This document shows positions 17,277 through 40,435 of a stretch of DNA of 64,000 nt, piece after piece. The translations under genes and the position numbers were made by a program. Origin of the DNA: Streptosporangiaceae bacterium (GTDB taxonomy: Bacteria; Actinomycetota; Actinomycetes; Streptosporangiales; Streptosporangiaceae); NCBI GenBank assembly GCA_019245115.1, contig JAFARZ010000237.1, positions 1 to 64,000 on the forward strand, read 5' to 3'. A model generated the notes under the pieces. That model was not told where the DNA came from. It did not search any database and saw only the letters and a program-made list of their open reading frames with translations. Within the stretch, counting starts at the first letter, position 1, and each line of letters begins with the position of its first letter.

Positions 17277-17321
17277 ACCTGCGCTCGTAGCTCAACGGAT
17301 AGAGCATCTGACTACGGATCA
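17277..17321 (+). repeat. attR: 45-bp core inside intact tRNA-Arg
   Basis: Identical to 393-437. It supplies the 5' half of the tRNA, while bases after 17321 are host tRNA 3' half. The identity block ends in the 3' strand of the anticodon stem, so strand exchange must fall at or before that point, as in integrases that cut at the anticodon loop. Confidence 0.9.
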
Positions 17322-17353
17322 GAAGGTTGGGGGTTCGAGTCCCTCCGAGCGCG
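17281..17353 (+). tRNA. tRNA-Arg (anticodon ACG)
   Basis: All arms fold. The acceptor stem GCGCTCG pairs with CGAGCGC, the D stem is GCTC/GAGC, the anticodon stem TCTGA/TCAGA encloses the loop CTACGGA, and the T arm contains GGTTCGAGTCC. The discriminator is G and CCA is not encoded. A34 would be changed to inosine to read CGU, CGC and CGA. The 5' half and upstream DNA come from the integrated element; the 3' half is host. The duplicate 5' half at 397 is not functional. Confidence 0.95.
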
Positions 17354-17480
17354 CTCCGCTCTTTGCAGGTCAGGGTCCACTTTCGTGCCCGCCCGATGAT
17401 CACGTGGCGTGCCCGCGTCCATCGAATCGCACATGAGGCGCTCACACGTTGTTCGATCACGCAGTACCGGCGTACCACGA

Positions 17481-31570: not shown

Positions 31571-32057
31571 CGATCCAGCTTACGATCTGATCAACGACGG
31601 CCGCCGGACCGTCTGCGGGGGTCACAACGATGGCCCGCTCATCCGGACCCGGCGGCTCCGCCGTGGCGAGCTGGCTGTCGAGCAGTTCCTGCGGGAAGAA
31701 GTGACCATGTCGCGTGGCCAGCCGTTTCCGCAGCGTCTCGCGGTCGACGGACAGGAAGACCACCCACACGCTGGGCCGGCCCTGAACCAGCACGTCCCGG
31801 TAGGCCCGCTTCAGCGCCGAGCAGGTGACCACCGCCGGCTCACCGGCCGCGATACGCTCGTCGATCCAGGCCGCGATGGCCCGCAGCCAAGGCCAGCGAT
31901 CCTCGTCGGTGAGCGGGATCCCGGCGTGCATCTTCGCCACGTTCGCGGCCGGATGAAAGTCGTCGGCATCGGCGAAGGTCCAGTTCAGGCGGCCGGCCAG
32001 CATGGCGCCCACCGTCGTCTTACCGCTCCCCGACACCCCCGCGACGATCACGACCAT
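31536..32057 (-). CDS. gntK: Gluconate kinase
   Basis: Encodes 173 residues of the GntK family. The P-loop is VSGSGKTTVGAML, followed by FADADDFHPAANVAKM, GIPLTDEDRWPWL and TCSALKRAYRDVL, all diagnostic of gluconokinases. It phosphorylates D-gluconate to 6-phosphogluconate with ATP, feeding the pentose phosphate pathway. It overlaps the GH25 gene at its start (38 bases) and the Smr gene at its end. No gluconate permease is nearby. Confidence 0.92.
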   Translation of the reverse strand: MVVIVAGVSGSGKTTVGAMLAGRLNWTFADADDFHPAANVAKMHAGIPLTDEDRWPWLRAIAAWIDERIAAGEPAVVTCSALKRAYRDVLVQGRPSVWVVFLSVDRETLRKRLATRHGHFFPQELLDSQLATAEPPGPDERAIVVTPADGPAAVVDQIVSWIGEAEAGPARHL

Positions 32058-32973
32058 GACCCGGTAACGATACCTCGTAGCCGACTACGACCTCCCCGGC
32101 GTCTTGCCGCTTGACCGAGATGACGCCGGTGTCGGCCGGGTTAGGGAAGTGGATGACCGTCTGCCCCTTGCTGGAGTCCACGGTCACGTCGTTGGTTATG
32201 TGCCAGTTTGTGTCGAACACCGCGACCCGCAGCGCCGCCGGCGGCAGGCCCTGGATGCCGTTGTCGCAGCCGAACGCGATGTTCGTGCCGCTGCCGAACG
32301 GCACCGTTATCACCGTGACAGCGTTCGCCCCGTTGTTGAGCTGGCCTGATTGCACTTCAGCCTCCGGCTGGTAGGACGCGATCCAACTGTTCAATTGCGC
32401 GGCTGACCCGTTGAACACGTCGTTGTCGTAGCTGCTCGTGCTGCCGGACTGCCAGAACTTCCAGGCTGTCCACGGTGGCGGCGCCCCGGGCGTGGCCGTC
32501 TGGAAGATCGCCAGCCACAGCGGGTACCCGCCCAGCCCCGCGCAGTTTCCCGAGACGATGAAGTCCCAGTAGGAGTAGACACCGCACGGGTTGTGCGGCC
32601 GCAGCGCGGTCAGCGTGGACATGAAATCCCTGGCGCAGGCGGCCACCGACGCCGCCGACGCGCCCGCGGTCTCGTTGTCCAGCCACAGCATGTCGGTGTT
32701 CAGCAGTCCGGCCGCGCTGACCGTCTGGACGAAGTACCGGGCCTGCGCCGCGCCGTCCAGTCTCGGGTCGAGGAAGTGGTAAGCGCCGCGGGCCAGCCCC
32801 TTCGCCTTGATCCGTGGCCAGTTCCAGGACAGGAAGGGGTCCGGCGAGTTGGTGCCGGGCGCGCCGAGTCCCTGGCTGGCCCGGCAGATACCGAACGACA
32901 GCCCCGAGGTAGCGGCCCAGTCGAAGTCCCCGGCATAATTCGAGACATCGATTCCGCGCGCAAGATCTGCCAT
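32020..32973 (-). CDS. GH25-like muramidase domain protein
   Basis: Encodes 317 residues. Residues 1-210 match the GH25/lysozyme-like barrel: GIDVSNYAGDFDW (D9), FGICRASQGLG, AYHFLDP, MLWLDNETAG (E101 as acid) and a WKFWQSGS segment. GH25 enzymes cut peptidoglycan between MurNAc and GlcNAc. The C-terminal domain (about 215-300) is beta-rich and unrecognised. There is no signal peptide, so export or use as a cytosolic or phage-derived lysin is uncertain. It heads an overlapping set with gntK and the Smr gene. Confidence 0.78.
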   Translation of the reverse strand: MADLARGIDVSNYAGDFDWAATSGLSFGICRASQGLGAPGTNSPDPFLSWNWPRIKAKGLARGAYHFLDPRLDGAAQARYFVQTVSAAGLLNTDMLWLDNETAGASAASVAACARDFMSTLTALRPHNPCGVYSYWDFIVSGNCAGLGGYPLWLAIFQTATPGAPPPWTAWKFWQSGSTSSYDNDVFNGSAAQLNSWIASYQPEAEVQSGQLNNGANAVTVITVPFGSGTNIAFGCDNGIQGLPPAALRVAVFDTNWHITNDVTVDSSKGQTVIHFPNPADTGVISVKRQDAGEVVVGYEVSLPGHGRDRRGGVGER

Positions 32974-33022
32974 CCGCGTTCCCCTTCCGGGGAGTGATCG
33001 TAGCTAAGGAGGCGAAGCCGCG

Positions 33023-36000
33023 ATGGCAAAATGGCCGGTACTCCGGCAGTTGCCCGGTCCGGACCGGCGAGGTCTGGGCGCCGCCACCCGGACCGCGAAG
33101 AACCCCCGTGCGGCCCGGACCGTCACGGCCGACCGGGTGGTCAAGTCGGTGTGCCCCTATTGCGCGGTCGGCTGCGGCCAGAACGTCTACGTCTCTAACG
33201 AACGAGTCGTCCACATCGAAGGCGATCCTGACTCGCCGGTCAGCCGGGGGCGGCTGTGCCCGAAGGGTTCCGCCAGCATGCAATTGACCACCGGGGGCGC
33301 CCGCGAATACCGGGTGAAGTACCGGCGCCGTTTTTCGACGGAATTTGAAGATCTTGACCTTGATACGGCGATGGACATGATCGCGGACCGGGTCATCGCG
33401 GCACGCAGGAATGGCTGGCAGCCTGAGCATCGCAGGACGCTGGGGTTCGCCAGCCTCGGCGGCGCGACGCTCGACAACGAAGAGAATTACCTGATCAAAA
33501 AGCTGTTTACCGCGCTCGGCGCTATCCAGATCGAGAATCAGGCCCGTATTTGACACTCTTCGACAGTCCCCGGTCTGGGGATCAGCTTCGGCCGCGGCGG
33601 CGCGACCACATTCCAGCAGGACCTGGTAAATGCCGATTGTATAGTCATCCAGGGCTCGAATATGGCCGAATGCCATCCGGTCGGGTTCCAGTGGGTGGTG
33701 GAGGCCAAGAAGCGCGGTGCCAAGATAGTCCACGTCGACCCCAGGTTCACCCGGACCAGCGCCCTCGCTGACCTGCATGTGCCGCTGCGGGCCGGGTCGG
33801 ACATCGTATTTCTCGGCGCGATCATCAATTATGTGCTGGCCAACGAGAAATACTTCAAGGAGTACGTCGCCGCGTACACCAACGCCGCAACGATAGTGAC
33901 CGAGGAATTCGCCGACACCGAGGATCTCGATGGCGTTTTCGCTGGCCTGGACGCCGAAAACCACAAATATGACCTGTCCGCCTGGGCCTATGAAGATACC
34001 ACCGTGCGGGCCGCCGCCGGTTCCCGAGGTAGGCCCTTTGGACGAACGGACGGTGGCTCGACCCCCCAGGTAGCCGAATCCCTCGACCACCCGCGTTGCG
34101 TATTCCAGACTTTGAAGCGGCATTTCGCCAGGTACACCCCTGAGATGGTTCTCCAGGCCTGCGGCGTTCCGCCGGACGTGTTCGCGCGGGTGTGCGAACT
34201 GGTCACCGAGAATTCCGGCCGTGACCGGACCACGGCCTTCGTATACAGCGTGGGGTGGACGCAGCACACGGTCGGCGTGCAGTACATCAGGACCGCGGCG
34301 ATCCTGCAGGCCCTGCTCGGCAATATGGGACGGCCGGGCGGCGGGATCCTCGCGCTGCGGGGACACGCGTCTATTCAGGGATCGACCGATATCCCGACGC
34401 TGTTCGATCTGCTGCCCGGTTATCTGCCGATGCCCGTATCGGCAAAGCATGGCTCGCTTTCCGAATACGTCGACGATATCGCTATGCCGCGTGGTTTCTG
34501 GGCGAATACCGGGGCCTACATGACCAGCCTGCTGAAGGCATGGTGGGGCGACGTGGCAACCGCGGAGAACGACTTCTGTTACGGTTACCTGCCCAGGCTC
34601 ACCGGGGATCACTCCACGTACGCGACCGTGCTCGAACAGCTGGACGGGCGCTGCGAGGGGTACTTCCTGCTGGGGCAGAACCCGGCGGTGGGCTCGGCCA
34701 ACGCGCGGATGCAGCGGTTCGGCATGGCCAACCTGGACTGGCTGGTCGTCCGGGACATGACGATGATCGAGTCCGCGACGTGGTGGCGGGACGGGCCGGA
34801 GATCGAGACCGGGGAGATGCGCACCGAACAGATCCCGACCGAGGTGTTCTTCATCCCGGCCGCCGCCCACACCGAGAAGTCGGGTTCGTTTACCAACACC
34901 CAGCGGATGCTCCAATGGCATCACGAGGCGGTGCCGCCGGCCGGGGACGCGCGCAGCGATCTGTGGTTCATCTATGAGCTGGGTCGGCGCATCCGTGCCA
35001 AGCTGGCCCGGTCCGATGATCCCGCCGACCGGCCCGTGCTGGATCTGACCTGGGATTACCCGGTGTCGGGACCGTGGGGTGAGCCGTCCGCTGAGGCGGT
35101 GCTCGCGGAGATCAACGGCTGGGACGCCGATGGCGAGCCACTGGCCGGGTTTGCCGGCCTGCGGGACGACGGGTCGACCACCTGCGGGTGCTGGATCTAC
35201 GCCGGGGTCCATGCCGACGGCGTGAACCAGGCGGCCCGGCGGGTTCCCGGCTCGGAGCAGAGCTGGGTCGCGCCGCAGTGGGGCTGGGCGTGGCCGGCCA
35301 ACCGGCGGATCCTGTACAACCGGGCTTCGGCGGACCCGTCCGGTAAGCCGTGGAGTGAGCGCAAGGCGTATGTGTGGTGGGACGAGGAGGTGGGCCGCTG
35401 GACCGGTTACGACGTGCCGGACTTCCCGGTGACCCGGCCGCCCTCGTACCGGCCCTCGCCGGACGCCACCGGAGTCGACGCGATTTCCGGCGACGATCCG
35501 TTCATTATGCAGGCGGACGGGAAGGCGTGGCTGTTCGCGCCCGCCGGGCTGGCGGACGGTCCGCTGCCGGCGCACTACGAGCCGGCCGAGTCGCCGTTCG
35601 CCAACCCGCTCTATGCGCAGCAGGCCAATCCGATCCGGGAAACGATCCGGCACCCCCTCAACCCTATGGAGCCAACTGGCTCGGCGGCGTTCCCGTACGT
35701 CGCGACCACCTACCGGCTGACCGAGCACCACACGGCCGGTGGCATGTCACGCACGCTCCCGTATCTGTCGGAATTGCAACCGGAGTTCTTCTGCGAGGTC
35801 TCGCCCGCGCTGGCCGCCGAGCGAGGGCTGGAAAACGGAGGATGGGCGACGATCGTGACCGCGCGGACGGCGGTGGAGGCCCGGGTGCTGGTTACCGACC
35901 GGATCCGGCCGCTTGAGGTGGGCGGCCGGGTGCTGCACCAGGTGGGCCTGCCCTACCACTGGGGCCCGAACGGCCTGGTCACCGGCGACGCGGCCAACGA

Positions 36001-36145
36001 ACTCGCGCACCTGTCCCTCGACCCGAACGTCCACATCCAGGAGGTAAAGGCCCTGGCGTGCGACATCCGCCCCGGACGCCGCCCGCGTGGCCCGGCGCTG
36101 CTGGATCTGATCCGCTCCTACCAGGCCCGGGCCGAGCGGGAATGA
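33023..36145 (+). CDS. fdhA: Selenocysteine formate dehydrogenase alpha subunit
   Basis: Encodes 1040 residues if UGA at 33551 is read as selenocysteine (Sec177). The frame is continuous across it, and QARI-Sec-HSSTVPGLG matches the active-site loop of molybdopterin formate dehydrogenases. The [4Fe-4S] motif is CPYCAVGC...LCPKG (C44, C47, C51, C79). The molybdopterin domain with RFTRTSALADLHVPLRAGSD and a C-terminal MopB fold with GLPYHWGPNGLVTGDAAN follow. It oxidises formate to CO2. AAGGAGG lies before the ATG. No FdhB, cytochrome or selB-type gene follows, so partners are elsewhere. Read as two genes it would lack its catalytic residue. Confidence 0.92.
33566..33582 (+). promoter_or_regulatory. 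SECIS-like hairpin for Sec insertion
   Basis: GTCCCC (33566-33571) pairs with GGGGAT (33577-33582) around loop GGTCT, starting 12 bases after the UGA at 33551-33553. The loop has the GU-containing GGUCU seen in the E. coli fdhF element, and the distance fits bacterial SECIS elements. It would recruit SelB with selenocysteyl-tRNA. Confidence 0.75.
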
Positions 36146-36390: not shown

Positions 36391-38517
36391 ATGACTACCA
36401 CCATGGAGCAAACCCTTACACCGCCGCAGGTTCCGCCCGACGCCCAAGCCCAAGCCCAGGCCGATGCCGCGGCCGTTTCCGGCATCCTCGACGTGGGCGA
36501 CGGCTCCCCCCGCCCGGGGGGAGCCGTCCCCCCGGACCCCCGCGGCTTCGTGCGCACCGACGGATACCGTCGCGGCCCCGACGACATCTACGTGTCCGGC
36601 ACTCAGCTCCGCCAGTACGGCCTCCGCGCCGGTGACCTGATCGAAGGCGCCGCTCAGATGGGGGCGTCCAAACGCGGCGACGCCAAGAACCCGCGGCTGA
36701 TCCGCGTCGATTCCATCAACGGCATGCCGCCTGAGTCGGCACGCGAACGCCGGCGGTTCGACGATCTGACCCCTCTCTACCCGACCGAGCGCCTCCGCCT
36801 GGAAGACGGCCTTTCCTCGGCGACGGCTCGGATCATCGACCTGATGGCCCCGATCGGCAAGGGCCAGCGCGGGCTCATCGTGGCCGCGCCCAAGGCCGGC
36901 AAGACTATGGTGCTGCAAACCATCGCGGCGGCGATCGCCGCCAGCCACCCCGAAGTTCACCTCATGGTGATCCTGGTCGGCGAGCGACCGGAAGAGGTCA
37001 CCCACATGCGCCGGTCGGTGCGGGGCGAAGTCATCTCCTCCACCTTCGACCAGTCGCCGGAGGATCACGTCAAGGTCGCCGAGCTGGCCATCGAGCGGGC
37101 CAAGCGCCTGGTGGAACTGGGCGGAGACGTCGTGGTCCTCCTGGATTCGCTCACGCGCCTCGGCCGTGCCTACAACCTGGCGGCTCCGTCCAGTAGCAGG
37201 ACGCTGGCCGGCGGCGTCGCCGTCTCGGCGTTGCAGCCACCGCGGCAGTTCCTCGGCGCGGCCCGGAACACCGAGAACGGCGGGTCGCTCACCATACTTT
37301 CCACAACGCTGGTCGATACCGGCTCCCGTATGGACGACGTGCTGTTCGAAGAGTTCAAGGGCACGGGGAACATGGAGCTACGGCTGCGCCGCGAGCTGGC
37401 CGACAAGCGCCTGTTCCCGGCGATTGACCCGATGTCTTCAGGTACTCGTCACGACGAGCTGCTGATGGCTCCTGATGAATACCAGGCGGTCGCCAGGCTC
37501 CGTCGGGCGCTGGGTGCCCTGGACCCGCAACAAGCAGCGGAACTACTGATCGACAAGACCGGCCAGGCCACATCCAATGTCGAGTTCCTCCAGCAAATCC
37601 AGCGTTCTCCCCGCGCTGGTGATTTATGGCGGTACTTGACCATATTTGGGGTGAGGCGTAGGAAAAGGAGAGAGCGGGGAGTCCCCGGAGGCCTTGGCGC
37701 GGAGGAAACACCGCTGCGAATGCGGAGGGCGATAAATGAGAAGATTGATCCGAGGTTTGGCGGCCGGGCTGGTCGGGCTGACCGCGCTGTCCTTGGTAGC
37801 CGTGGCGCGTACCGCGCCGGCCGCCGAGGCCGAGAACAACGGGGTGGGAGCCACTCCCGCGATGGGCTGGAGCAGCTGGAGCTTCATCCGGCACAATCCC
37901 ACCGCCGCGATCATCGAGGCTCAGGCCAAGGCGATGAAGGACAGCGGCCTTGCCCGCGTGGGCTATCAGTACGTCAACGTCGACGACTTCTGGTACCAGT
38001 GCCCGGGCAGCCAGGGGCCCGCCGTCGACCAGTACGGCCGCTGGGTGATCGACCCGGCGAAGTTCCCATCCAGCGGATCCCTCAACGGCATCCAGGTGGT
38101 CGCCAACTACGTGCACAGCCTCGGCCTCAAGTTCGGGCTGTACGTGACGCCGGGTATCTCCAAGCAGGCGGTCGCGCAGAACACCGCCATCCAGGGCACT
38201 TCCGCCACCGCCGATCAGATCGCCGAGCCGTCGGTGTCCGAGAACAACTACAACTGCGGCGGCATGGTCGGCATCGACTACAGCAAGCCGGGTGCCCAGG
38301 CCTTCATCAACTCGTGGGCCGACGAATTCGCCTCGTGGGGAGTGGACTATCTCAAGCTCGACGGCGTGGGCTCCTTCGACATCCCCGACGTCCAGGCCTG
38401 GTCCAATGCCCTGCGGCAGACCGGCCGCCCCATTCACCTGGAGTTGTCCAACAGCCTGAACATCGCCGACGCGGCCACCTGGCAACAGTACTCAAACGGC
38501 TGGCGGACCGGCGGTGA
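36391..38517 (+). CDS. rho: Short Rho-type termination factor paralogue with runaway 3' frame
   Basis: The conserved Rho part is residues 1 to about 412 (to about 37620). An RNA-binding OB fold (about 45-125, DDIYVSGTQLRQYGLRAGD) and the RecA-like motor follow: P-loop APKAGKTMVLQ, VILVGERPEEVTHMRR, Walker B VVLLDSLTRLGRAYN, Q-loop RTLAGGVAVSAL and R-loop GSLTILSTTLVDTGSRMDD. The long basic N-terminal insert and Rho_N helices usual in actinobacterial Rho are missing, so it is probably an accessory Rho. After FLQQIQRS no stop occurs and the frame runs about 300 codons, 782 bases of it inside the GH27 gene. A lost stop, indel or sequence error is likely; the extension is not expected to be a real domain. 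Confidence 0.82.
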   Translation: MTTTMEQTLTPPQVPPDAQAQAQADAAAVSGILDVGDGSPRPGGAVPPDPRGFVRTDGYRRGPDDIYVSGTQLRQYGLRAGDLIEGAAQMGASKRGDAKNPRLIRVDSINGMPPESARERRRFDDLTPLYPTERLRLEDGLSSATARIIDLMAPIGKGQRGLIVAAPKAGKTMVLQTIAAAIAASHPEVHLMVILVGERPEEVTHMRRSVRGEVISSTFDQSPEDHVKVAELAIERAKRLVELGGDVVVLLDSLTRLGRAYNLAAPSSSRTLAGGVAVSALQPPRQFLGAARNTENGGSLTILSTTLVDTGSRMDDVLFEEFKGTGNMELRLRRELADKRLFPAIDPMSSGTRHDELLMAPDEYQAVARLRRALGALDPQQAAELLIDKTGQATSNVEFLQQIQRSPRAGDLWRYLTIFGVRRRKRRERGVPGGLGAEETPLRMRRAINEKIDPRFGGRAGRADRAVLGSRGAYRAGRRGREQRGGSHSRDGLEQLELHPAQSHRRDHRGSGQGDEGQRPCPRGLSVRQRRRLLVPVPGQPGARRRPVRPLGDRPGEVPIQRIPQRHPGGRQLRAQPRPQVRAVRDAGYLQAGGRAEHRHPGHFRHRRSDRRAVGVREQLQLRRHGRHRLQQAGCPGLHQLVGRRIRLVGSGLSQARRRGLLRHPRRPGLVQCPAADRPPHSPGVVQQPEHRRRGHLATVLKRLADRR

Positions 38518-40435
38518 CATCGAGTGTTACGGCTGTGAGACCGGCGGCAGCAGTTATCCGCTCACCGACTGGACGAGCGTGAAATCCCGGTTCAACCAGG
38601 TCGCGCAGTGGCAGCCATACGGCGGACCGGGGGCGTTCAACGACTACGACTCGACCGAGGTGGGCAACGGCGCCAACGACGGCCTGACCTATGACGAGCG
38701 CCAGACCCAGTTGAGCCTGTGGGCACTGGCGGCTTCTCCGCTCATCCTCGGTACCGACCTGACCCATCTTGACCAGGCCGACCTGGGATTGCTGCTCAAC
38801 TCCGACGTCATCGCGGTGGACCAGGACAGCATCGATGCCTCGCGCGTGGTCAACACCGCTACCACGCAGGTGTTCGCCAAGACCGAGAAGAACGGCGACG
38901 TCGTGGTCGGGCTGTTCAACGTGAGCGGCGCGTCGGAGGTGGTCTCGACATCGGCCGCCGCGCTCGGGCTCCAGCCGAGCACCAGCTATCTGCTGGACAA
39001 CCTGTGGACACACCATTCGACTGAGACCGCGGGCACGATCAGCGCCGACGTCCCGTCACACGGCGTCGCGCTGCTGCGGGTCAGCCCGCTGCGCAACCCG
39101 GCGGCCGCTCCGCCGGCCGCCACTGTGGATCTGACTGGCCTGTCCGCTCTGTCCGGCGGCCAGCCCGGCACGGCCACCGAATCGTTCACCAATGACGGCG
39201 CGCTGCCTGCCCTTGCCGTCCGGCTGGGCCTCACCGCGCCGCCTGGATGGACCGTGGCCGCGACCTCGCCTGCACAGTTCGCGTCGGTGGGCAGCGGGCA
39301 AACGGTCCAGGCCACCTTCAACGTCACCGCGCCCACGCCATCAGCCCTGTTCACGACCAGCACGGTCACCGCGTCGGCGGCATACCGCGGCCCGCTTCCC
39401 GTACTCCAGACCGCCTCGGAGCAGCAACAGGTGATAACGAGCCCGCCGGTCAGGGCGCCCTACCTGACGTTCTCCTCCGCGACCGACGCGCCAGCCGTGT
39501 TCGGCCAGTCGGGCCAGGAACTCGGCATTTCCGGGGCCGGCGCGGACCTGTACTCCGGCACCGACGCCTACAGCGCGATCTACCTGAAGGGTGCCATCGG
39601 CGCCACGGCCACCATCCAGACCGAGGTGACCTCGCAGCAGGCCATGGCCGGTTTCGCGAAGGCCGGGATCATGGTGCGCAACGACATGACCGGATCCGGC
39701 AAGAGCCCGGAAGGGGTGATCCTGTTCGAGTCGCCCTCCGGCGGCATCCAGCTGGAGTGGGACAGCAACGGCGGGCCGTTCGTAGACTCCGTCACCCCAG
39801 CCAACGGGACCAATCCCGAACTGCTGCCGGTCTGGCTGGAACTGGTGCGCAACGGTGCCAGCTACACCGGTTACTACTCGTTCGACGGCACCGACTGGCT
39901 TACCGTGGGCACCGCGACCGTGCCGGGACAGGCCGCCACCCAGGATGCTGGCATGTTCCTCACCTCGCACGCCGCGGGCTCGCCCGGACAGGCGGTGTTC
40001 AACGGGTTCAGCGTCACGGCCGCCGCGGCGGCGCCCCCGCCCGGCGCCGCCTACCTGGCCGCGTCCTCGGCCAGCACGCTGGCCGGCGGCGCGGTCGTGC
40101 AGACCTGCATTACCTGCTACGGCGGTGCCAAGGTCGGCTTCGTCGGCGAGGGCGGCACGCTGACCTTCAACAACGTCACCGCCCCGGCGGCGGGCAGCTA
40201 CCGGGTCACCATCGTCTACTGCGACGGTTCGGCGACCGGCCGGCAGGCCACGGTCAGCGTCAACGGCGGCGCACCGCAGACGCTTTCCTTCACGCCCACG
40301 GGCAGCTTCAGCACGGTCGGCGCGATGACCGTCACCGTCGCGTTGTCCGCCGGCGCCAACACGGTCGAGTTCGCCAACCCGTCCGCGTTCGCCCCCGACT
40401 TCGACGAGCTCGTCGTGGCCCACGCGCCGAGCTGA
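37736..40435 (+). CDS. Secreted GH27 alpha-galactosidase with carbohydrate-binding modules
   Basis: Encodes 899 residues behind a GGAGGG site. Signal peptide about 1-29. The GH27 barrel (about 38-330) starts TPAMGWSSWSFI and has VDYLKLDGVG (nucleophile Asp) and GAFNDYDSTEVG (acid/base Asp). An all-beta C domain follows to about 450, then a NEW3-type module (about 470-560), a LamG/DUF1349-like sandwich (about 590-750) and a CBM35/CBM6-like end. It would release terminal alpha-galactose from plant or fungal polysaccharides outside the cell. The first 260 codons overlap the runaway frame of the Rho gene. Confidence 0.92.
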   Translation: MRRLIRGLAAGLVGLTALSLVAVARTAPAAEAENNGVGATPAMGWSSWSFIRHNPTAAIIEAQAKAMKDSGLARVGYQYVNVDDFWYQCPGSQGPAVDQYGRWVIDPAKFPSSGSLNGIQVVANYVHSLGLKFGLYVTPGISKQAVAQNTAIQGTSATADQIAEPSVSENNYNCGGMVGIDYSKPGAQAFINSWADEFASWGVDYLKLDGVGSFDIPDVQAWSNALRQTGRPIHLELSNSLNIADAATWQQYSNGWRTGGDIECYGCETGGSSYPLTDWTSVKSRFNQVAQWQPYGGPGAFNDYDSTEVGNGANDGLTYDERQTQLSLWALAASPLILGTDLTHLDQADLGLLLNSDVIAVDQDSIDASRVVNTATTQVFAKTEKNGDVVVGLFNVSGASEVVSTSAAALGLQPSTSYLLDNLWTHHSTETAGTISADVPSHGVALLRVSPLRNPAAAPPAATVDLTGLSALSGGQPGTATESFTNDGALPALAVRLGLTAPPGWTVAATSPAQFASVGSGQTVQATFNVTAPTPSALFTTSTVTASAAYRGPLPVLQTASEQQQVITSPPVRAPYLTFSSATDAPAVFGQSGQELGISGAGADLYSGTDAYSAIYLKGAIGATATIQTEVTSQQAMAGFAKAGIMVRNDMTGSGKSPEGVILFESPSGGIQLEWDSNGGPFVDSVTPANGTNPELLPVWLELVRNGASYTGYYSFDGTDWLTVGTATVPGQAATQDAGMFLTSHAAGSPGQAVFNGFSVTAAAAAPPPGAAYLAASSASTLAGGAVVQTCITCYGGAKVGFVGEGGTLTFNNVTAPAAGSYRVTIVYCDGSATGRQATVSVNGGAPQTLSFTPTGSFSTVGAMTVTVALSAGANTVEFANPSAFAPDFDELVVAHAPS

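Follow-up and report, generated by a model that had tools for sequence, protein, structure and literature searches.

A formate dehydrogenase gene interrupted by an in-frame UGA

The window (the whole 64,000-nucleotide stretch of DNA that we analyzed, from a Streptosporangiaceae bacterium) carries a predicted selenocysteine-containing formate dehydrogenase gene on its plus strand. The features at the locus are:

32020-32973, minus strand: divergent neighbor, glycoside hydrolase family 25 (PF01183), not a formate dehydrogenase subunit
33005-33011, plus strand: AAGGAGG, Shine-Dalgarno-like, just 5' of the ATG (placed by eye, +/- a few bases; from the sequence)
33023-36145, plus strand: predicted formate dehydrogenase alpha subunit, 1040 residues (NF041513 and TIGR01553; PDB relatives 1h0h and 1kqf)
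33551-33553, plus strand: UGA, predicted selenocysteine at residue 177, the Mo/W ligand position (from alignment with 1h0h and 1kqf)
33566-33582, plus strand: predicted bacterial SECIS hairpin, 6-bp stem GUCCCC/GGGGAU and 5-nt loop GGUCU (from pairing, comparative analysis and a bSECIS model)
36391-38517, plus strand: downstream neighbor, a second Rho-like gene (TIGR00767, 510.8 bits), not a formate dehydrogenase subunit

The start codon is the ATG at 33023, with the AAGGAGG as its ribosome-binding site. The open reading frame from this start (33023-33553) stops at the TGA at 33551-33553, and the frame is unbroken beyond it until the TGA at 36143-36145: codons 177 and 1041 are the only stops. 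A mechanical list of open reading frames cut the gene into pieces of 176 and 827 amino acids, which is the split that a preliminary description of this DNA had expected from simple gene calling. That description had also claimed that the UGA lies in frame between two parts of one protein and at the catalytic position, and both claims hold. First, the two halves match adjoining stretches of the NF041513 model (profile positions 4-185 and 187-1066). The read-through protein matches this model over its full length, with a score of 1896.9 bits (1400 is the cut-off), and it also matches TIGR01553 (919.1 bits; cut-off 814.2). Second, when the protein is aligned with 1h0h and with 1kqf (E. coli FdnG), the UGA residue lines up with their selenocysteine (printed as X). 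For the N-terminal cysteines of the [4Fe-4S] cluster (CPYCAVGC...C, residues 44-79), the aligned counterparts in 1h0h and 1kqf are CCYCSVGC and CTYCSVGC.

Taking these alignments together with the hairpin and the genome's selenocysteine genes, described below, we put the probability at about 96% that 33023-36145 encodes the alpha subunit of a selenocysteine-containing formate dehydrogenase, translated as one protein through a single in-frame UGA. Judged by its sequence, it is an ordinary member of NF041513 (actinobacterial formate dehydrogenases), and its predicted fold is settled by the solved relatives. A reading frame of 1,124 codons also lies antisense to the gene (32357-35731, minus strand); it is probably a by-product of high GC content, and it could mislead a gene caller.

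A SECIS hairpin conserved with the UGA

The preliminary description had placed a hairpin with a GGUCU loop 12 bases after the UGA, and this is where we find it. GUCCCC (33566-33571) pairs with GGGGAU (33577-33582) around the loop (33572-33576); the hairpin starts 12 nt 3' of the UGA, and the distance from the UGA to the loop is 18 nt. A published model of bacterial SECIS elements specifies a loop of 3-9 nt with a G in its first two positions, a stem of 4-16 bp, 16-37 nt from the UGA to the loop, and a minimum free energy of -7.5 kcal/mol or lower (PMC13188914). The window hairpin, at -9.7 kcal/mol when folded on its own, satisfies every one of these constraints. Two other analyses did not pick it out: when the 50 nt after the UGA were folded as a single sequence, the hairpin was not selected (z = +1.5), and searching the window with Rfam yielded one tRNA as the sole match. 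We accept the hairpin despite these results because the comparative test is decisive.

For this test we used 111 non-duplicate sequences, including the window: 86 have TGA at the selenocysteine codon and 25 have TGC or TGT. The hairpin is kept, with compensatory changes, in all 86 UGA sequences and is missing from all 25 cysteine relatives. If only distinct sequences are counted, pairing at the six positions is complete in 29 of 29 with UGA versus 0 of 24 with cysteine codons. Among the UGA sequences, the third stem pair exchanges between C-G, U-A and U-G, while the first two vary as G-C/G-U and U-A/U-G. If the partner strand is slid by 1-2 bases, pairing falls from 100% to 41-70%. The loop is GGTCT in 52 of these sequences, AGTCT in 28 and AGTTT in 6. 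The codon at Sec+6, which lies in the 5' arm, encodes proline in every UGA protein (VPGLG or VPSLG) but alanine, valine, threonine or serine in the cysteine proteins. This suggests that the RNA stem, not the protein, constrains that codon. In the 9.5-Mb genome, the combined pattern of UGA and hairpin (with up to 2 mismatches) occurs twice, both times in formate dehydrogenase genes, and it does not occur in the reversed control.

Selenocysteine machinery in the genome

The genome (G000) is a draft of 9.5 Mb in 444 contigs, 90.6% complete and 6.2% contaminated. The assignment of the contigs to one genome relies on the draft bin and on similar composition: the tetranucleotide correlation of window positions 28-36 kb with the contigs that carry sel genes is 0.86-0.89, and it is lower (0.67) for the stretch of contig C230 that is discussed below.

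No sel gene was found in the 64-kb window. Searches of the genome identified adjacent genes for SelB and SelA on contig C317, tRNA-Sec (anticodon UCA) on that contig too, and SelD on contig C271; all four score above the curated cut-offs. FdhD is on contig C175. The selenocysteine-decoding trait is complete, with selA, selB, selC and selD all in the genome. The search for these genes had been proposed in the preliminary description, which predicted SelA, SelB, SelD and tRNA-Sec; all four were located, and its one named ground for withdrawing the claim, a genome without selenocysteine genes, does not hold.

Formate dehydrogenases that use selenocysteine are well known from soil actinobacteria. 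In Streptomyces incarnatus, a selenocysteine-containing formate dehydrogenase-O has its UGA followed directly by a SECIS element, and selABCD are in the genome (PMC4498112). The window gene resembles it in its in-frame UGA, its SECIS and the presence of selA, selB, selC and selD. However, the sel genes of S. incarnatus form a cluster close to the alpha gene, whereas here they are on two other contigs. More broadly, few bacterial selenoproteins are as widespread as the alpha subunit of formate dehydrogenase, with 822 organisms (PMC5029168).

An alpha subunit gene with no partner genes beside it

Two observations go beyond the preliminary description: the window copy has no adjacent beta and gamma subunits, and the genome contains a second selenocysteine formate dehydrogenase. 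No match to FdhB or NrfD was found anywhere in the 64-kb window, so the gene is not part of an adjacent alpha-beta-NrfD operon there.

The genome does contain an intact FdhB gene followed by NrfD on contig C230, with no alpha gene found beside the pair. This second FdhB has 359 amino acids (L146:6176-7255, as a reading frame). It carries an in-frame insertion of about 75 residues, encoded in part by 60-bp repeats, which separates two portions of the iron-sulfur region. We considered whether it might be a broken copy, but the frame is intact over 359 amino acids, and the internal stops that had been listed lie past its end.

The same split is found in eight genomes of the Actinomadura clade (loci L117, L042, L044, L050, L052, L060, L072 and L085). 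These have an orphan selenocysteine alpha gene and, elsewhere, one close FdhB followed by NrfD, with no alpha in the examined flank. At most Streptomyces and Amycolatopsis loci, the selenocysteine alpha gene is together with fdhB-nrfD.

Because the window alpha subunit has no beta or NrfD beside it and no alpha was found next to the C230 pair, we lean, by elimination, towards the alpha subunit assembling with the distant beta and NrfD pair of C280/C230. Or it may share the subunits of a complete operon on contig C192, and a gap in the assembly may conceal a third alpha gene.

An unlikely alternative is that the window alpha subunit is soluble and acts alone or with another electron acceptor, outside any alpha-beta-NrfD complex. 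This would fit with the lack of a beta or gamma gene alongside. However, the same genome has a lone beta and NrfD pair, the Actinomadura-clade genomes with orphan alpha genes also keep such a pair elsewhere, and the window protein retains the invariant columns of its family.

Less probable still is a misassembly of the window contig between the formate dehydrogenase gene and Rho that masks a normal fdhA-fdhB-nrfD operon. The draft is fragmented, and the C230 FdhB gene is located at a contig junction. However, the ends of C230 and C280 overlap by 147 identical base pairs, and the frame upstream of this FdhB, read by eye, is SRPBCC-like and not an alpha subunit. Also, the split recurs in Actinomadura, where two of the eight genomes are single-contig or chromosome assemblies.

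The action of the window alpha subunit can be sketched from established knowledge. SelB-GTP-Sec-tRNA would bind the hairpin, and selenocysteine would be inserted at the UGA. The product is, with high probability, the catalytic subunit of a formate dehydrogenase of the bis-MGD type with molybdenum (or tungsten), in which selenocysteine would coordinate the metal and formate would be oxidized to CO2. With the C230 beta and NrfD subunits, or with those of C192 if they are shared, it would form a membrane-bound formate:quinone enzyme. E. coli FdnG (1kqf) and 1h0h belong to the same enzyme family and have selenocysteine at the aligned position, but the window protein differs at its N terminus, where inspection by eye revealed no twin-arginine signal; the enzyme therefore probably faces the cytoplasm.

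Other features of the window

The main Rho of this genome is on contig C168, and the Rho homolog in the window is a second, N-terminally short one. Its reading frame (36391-38517) extends about 290 codons beyond the Rho domain and enters, in a different frame, the start of an alpha-galactosidase-like gene (37736-40435). Its third-position GC drops after about codon 400, so the gene may have suffered a shift or damage at its 3' end. Positions 1-28000 of the window have a GC content of 0.631, as compared to 0.67-0.68 for positions 28000-64000, and the third-position GC of the genes is also lower. There is a tRNA-Arg at 17281-17354. It is possible that positions 1-28000 are an acquired region.

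A second selenocysteine formate dehydrogenase

The other selenocysteine formate dehydrogenase, on contig C192, has its own UGA and hairpin. Its genes are in the order alpha, FdhB, a 559-residue open reading frame, and NrfD. The 559-residue frame (L026:10630-12309) has no match in Pfam or NCBIfam; since fdhB and nrfD are about 100-200 bp apart in several relatives, it is probably an insertion.

The window and C192 alpha subunits are 71% identical. In a phylogenetic tree, all of the selenocysteine proteins are on one side and all of the cysteine proteins are on the other, and the window protein lies inside the selenocysteine clade (support 100). It groups with a protein from a Nocardiopsaceae metagenome-assembled genome (L030; support 98), and its end branch is 0.40. 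The C192 protein groups with L064 and L137 (support 99). These separate groupings rule out recent duplication as the origin of the two alpha genes. The window protein also keeps 312 of the 315 columns that are invariant in the other 108 proteins; thus, despite its long branch, it looks selected rather than decaying. Tentatively, the genome may keep two separately descended selenocysteine formate dehydrogenases, a complete operon and a split copy, the latter perhaps regulated on its own or passing electrons to another partner.

It is very improbable that the UGA truly ends translation or reflects a sequencing error (in a pseudogene or at a misread TGC or TGT cysteine codon): the long end branch and the orphan position, without partner genes alongside, would fit, but the protein retains nearly all of the invariant columns and falls within the selenocysteine clade, the hairpin that every cysteine relative lacks is present, and the C192 copy shares both the UGA and the hairpin.

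Compared to the selenocysteine branch of NF041513, the window gene has the whole-length match, the catalytic UGA and the SECIS hairpin, and its product is 67-74% identical to selenocysteine members from Streptomyces, Actinomadura, Amycolatopsis and others. It differs in that it is not beside fdhB and nrfD and in its long branch.

Overall, this type of formate dehydrogenase is already known, and the splitting of its genes adds a modest, mildly unusual point; the picture of selenocysteine decoding is unchanged by the window gene. Reading through the UGA mends a gene that simple annotation splits in two. For actinobacteria, the 86 UGA genes with the hairpin and the 25 cysteine genes without it form a clean natural contrast that shows selection acting on the SECIS element. 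With the alpha gene apart from the beta and NrfD genes, the assembly of the complex becomes a small question that can be tested.
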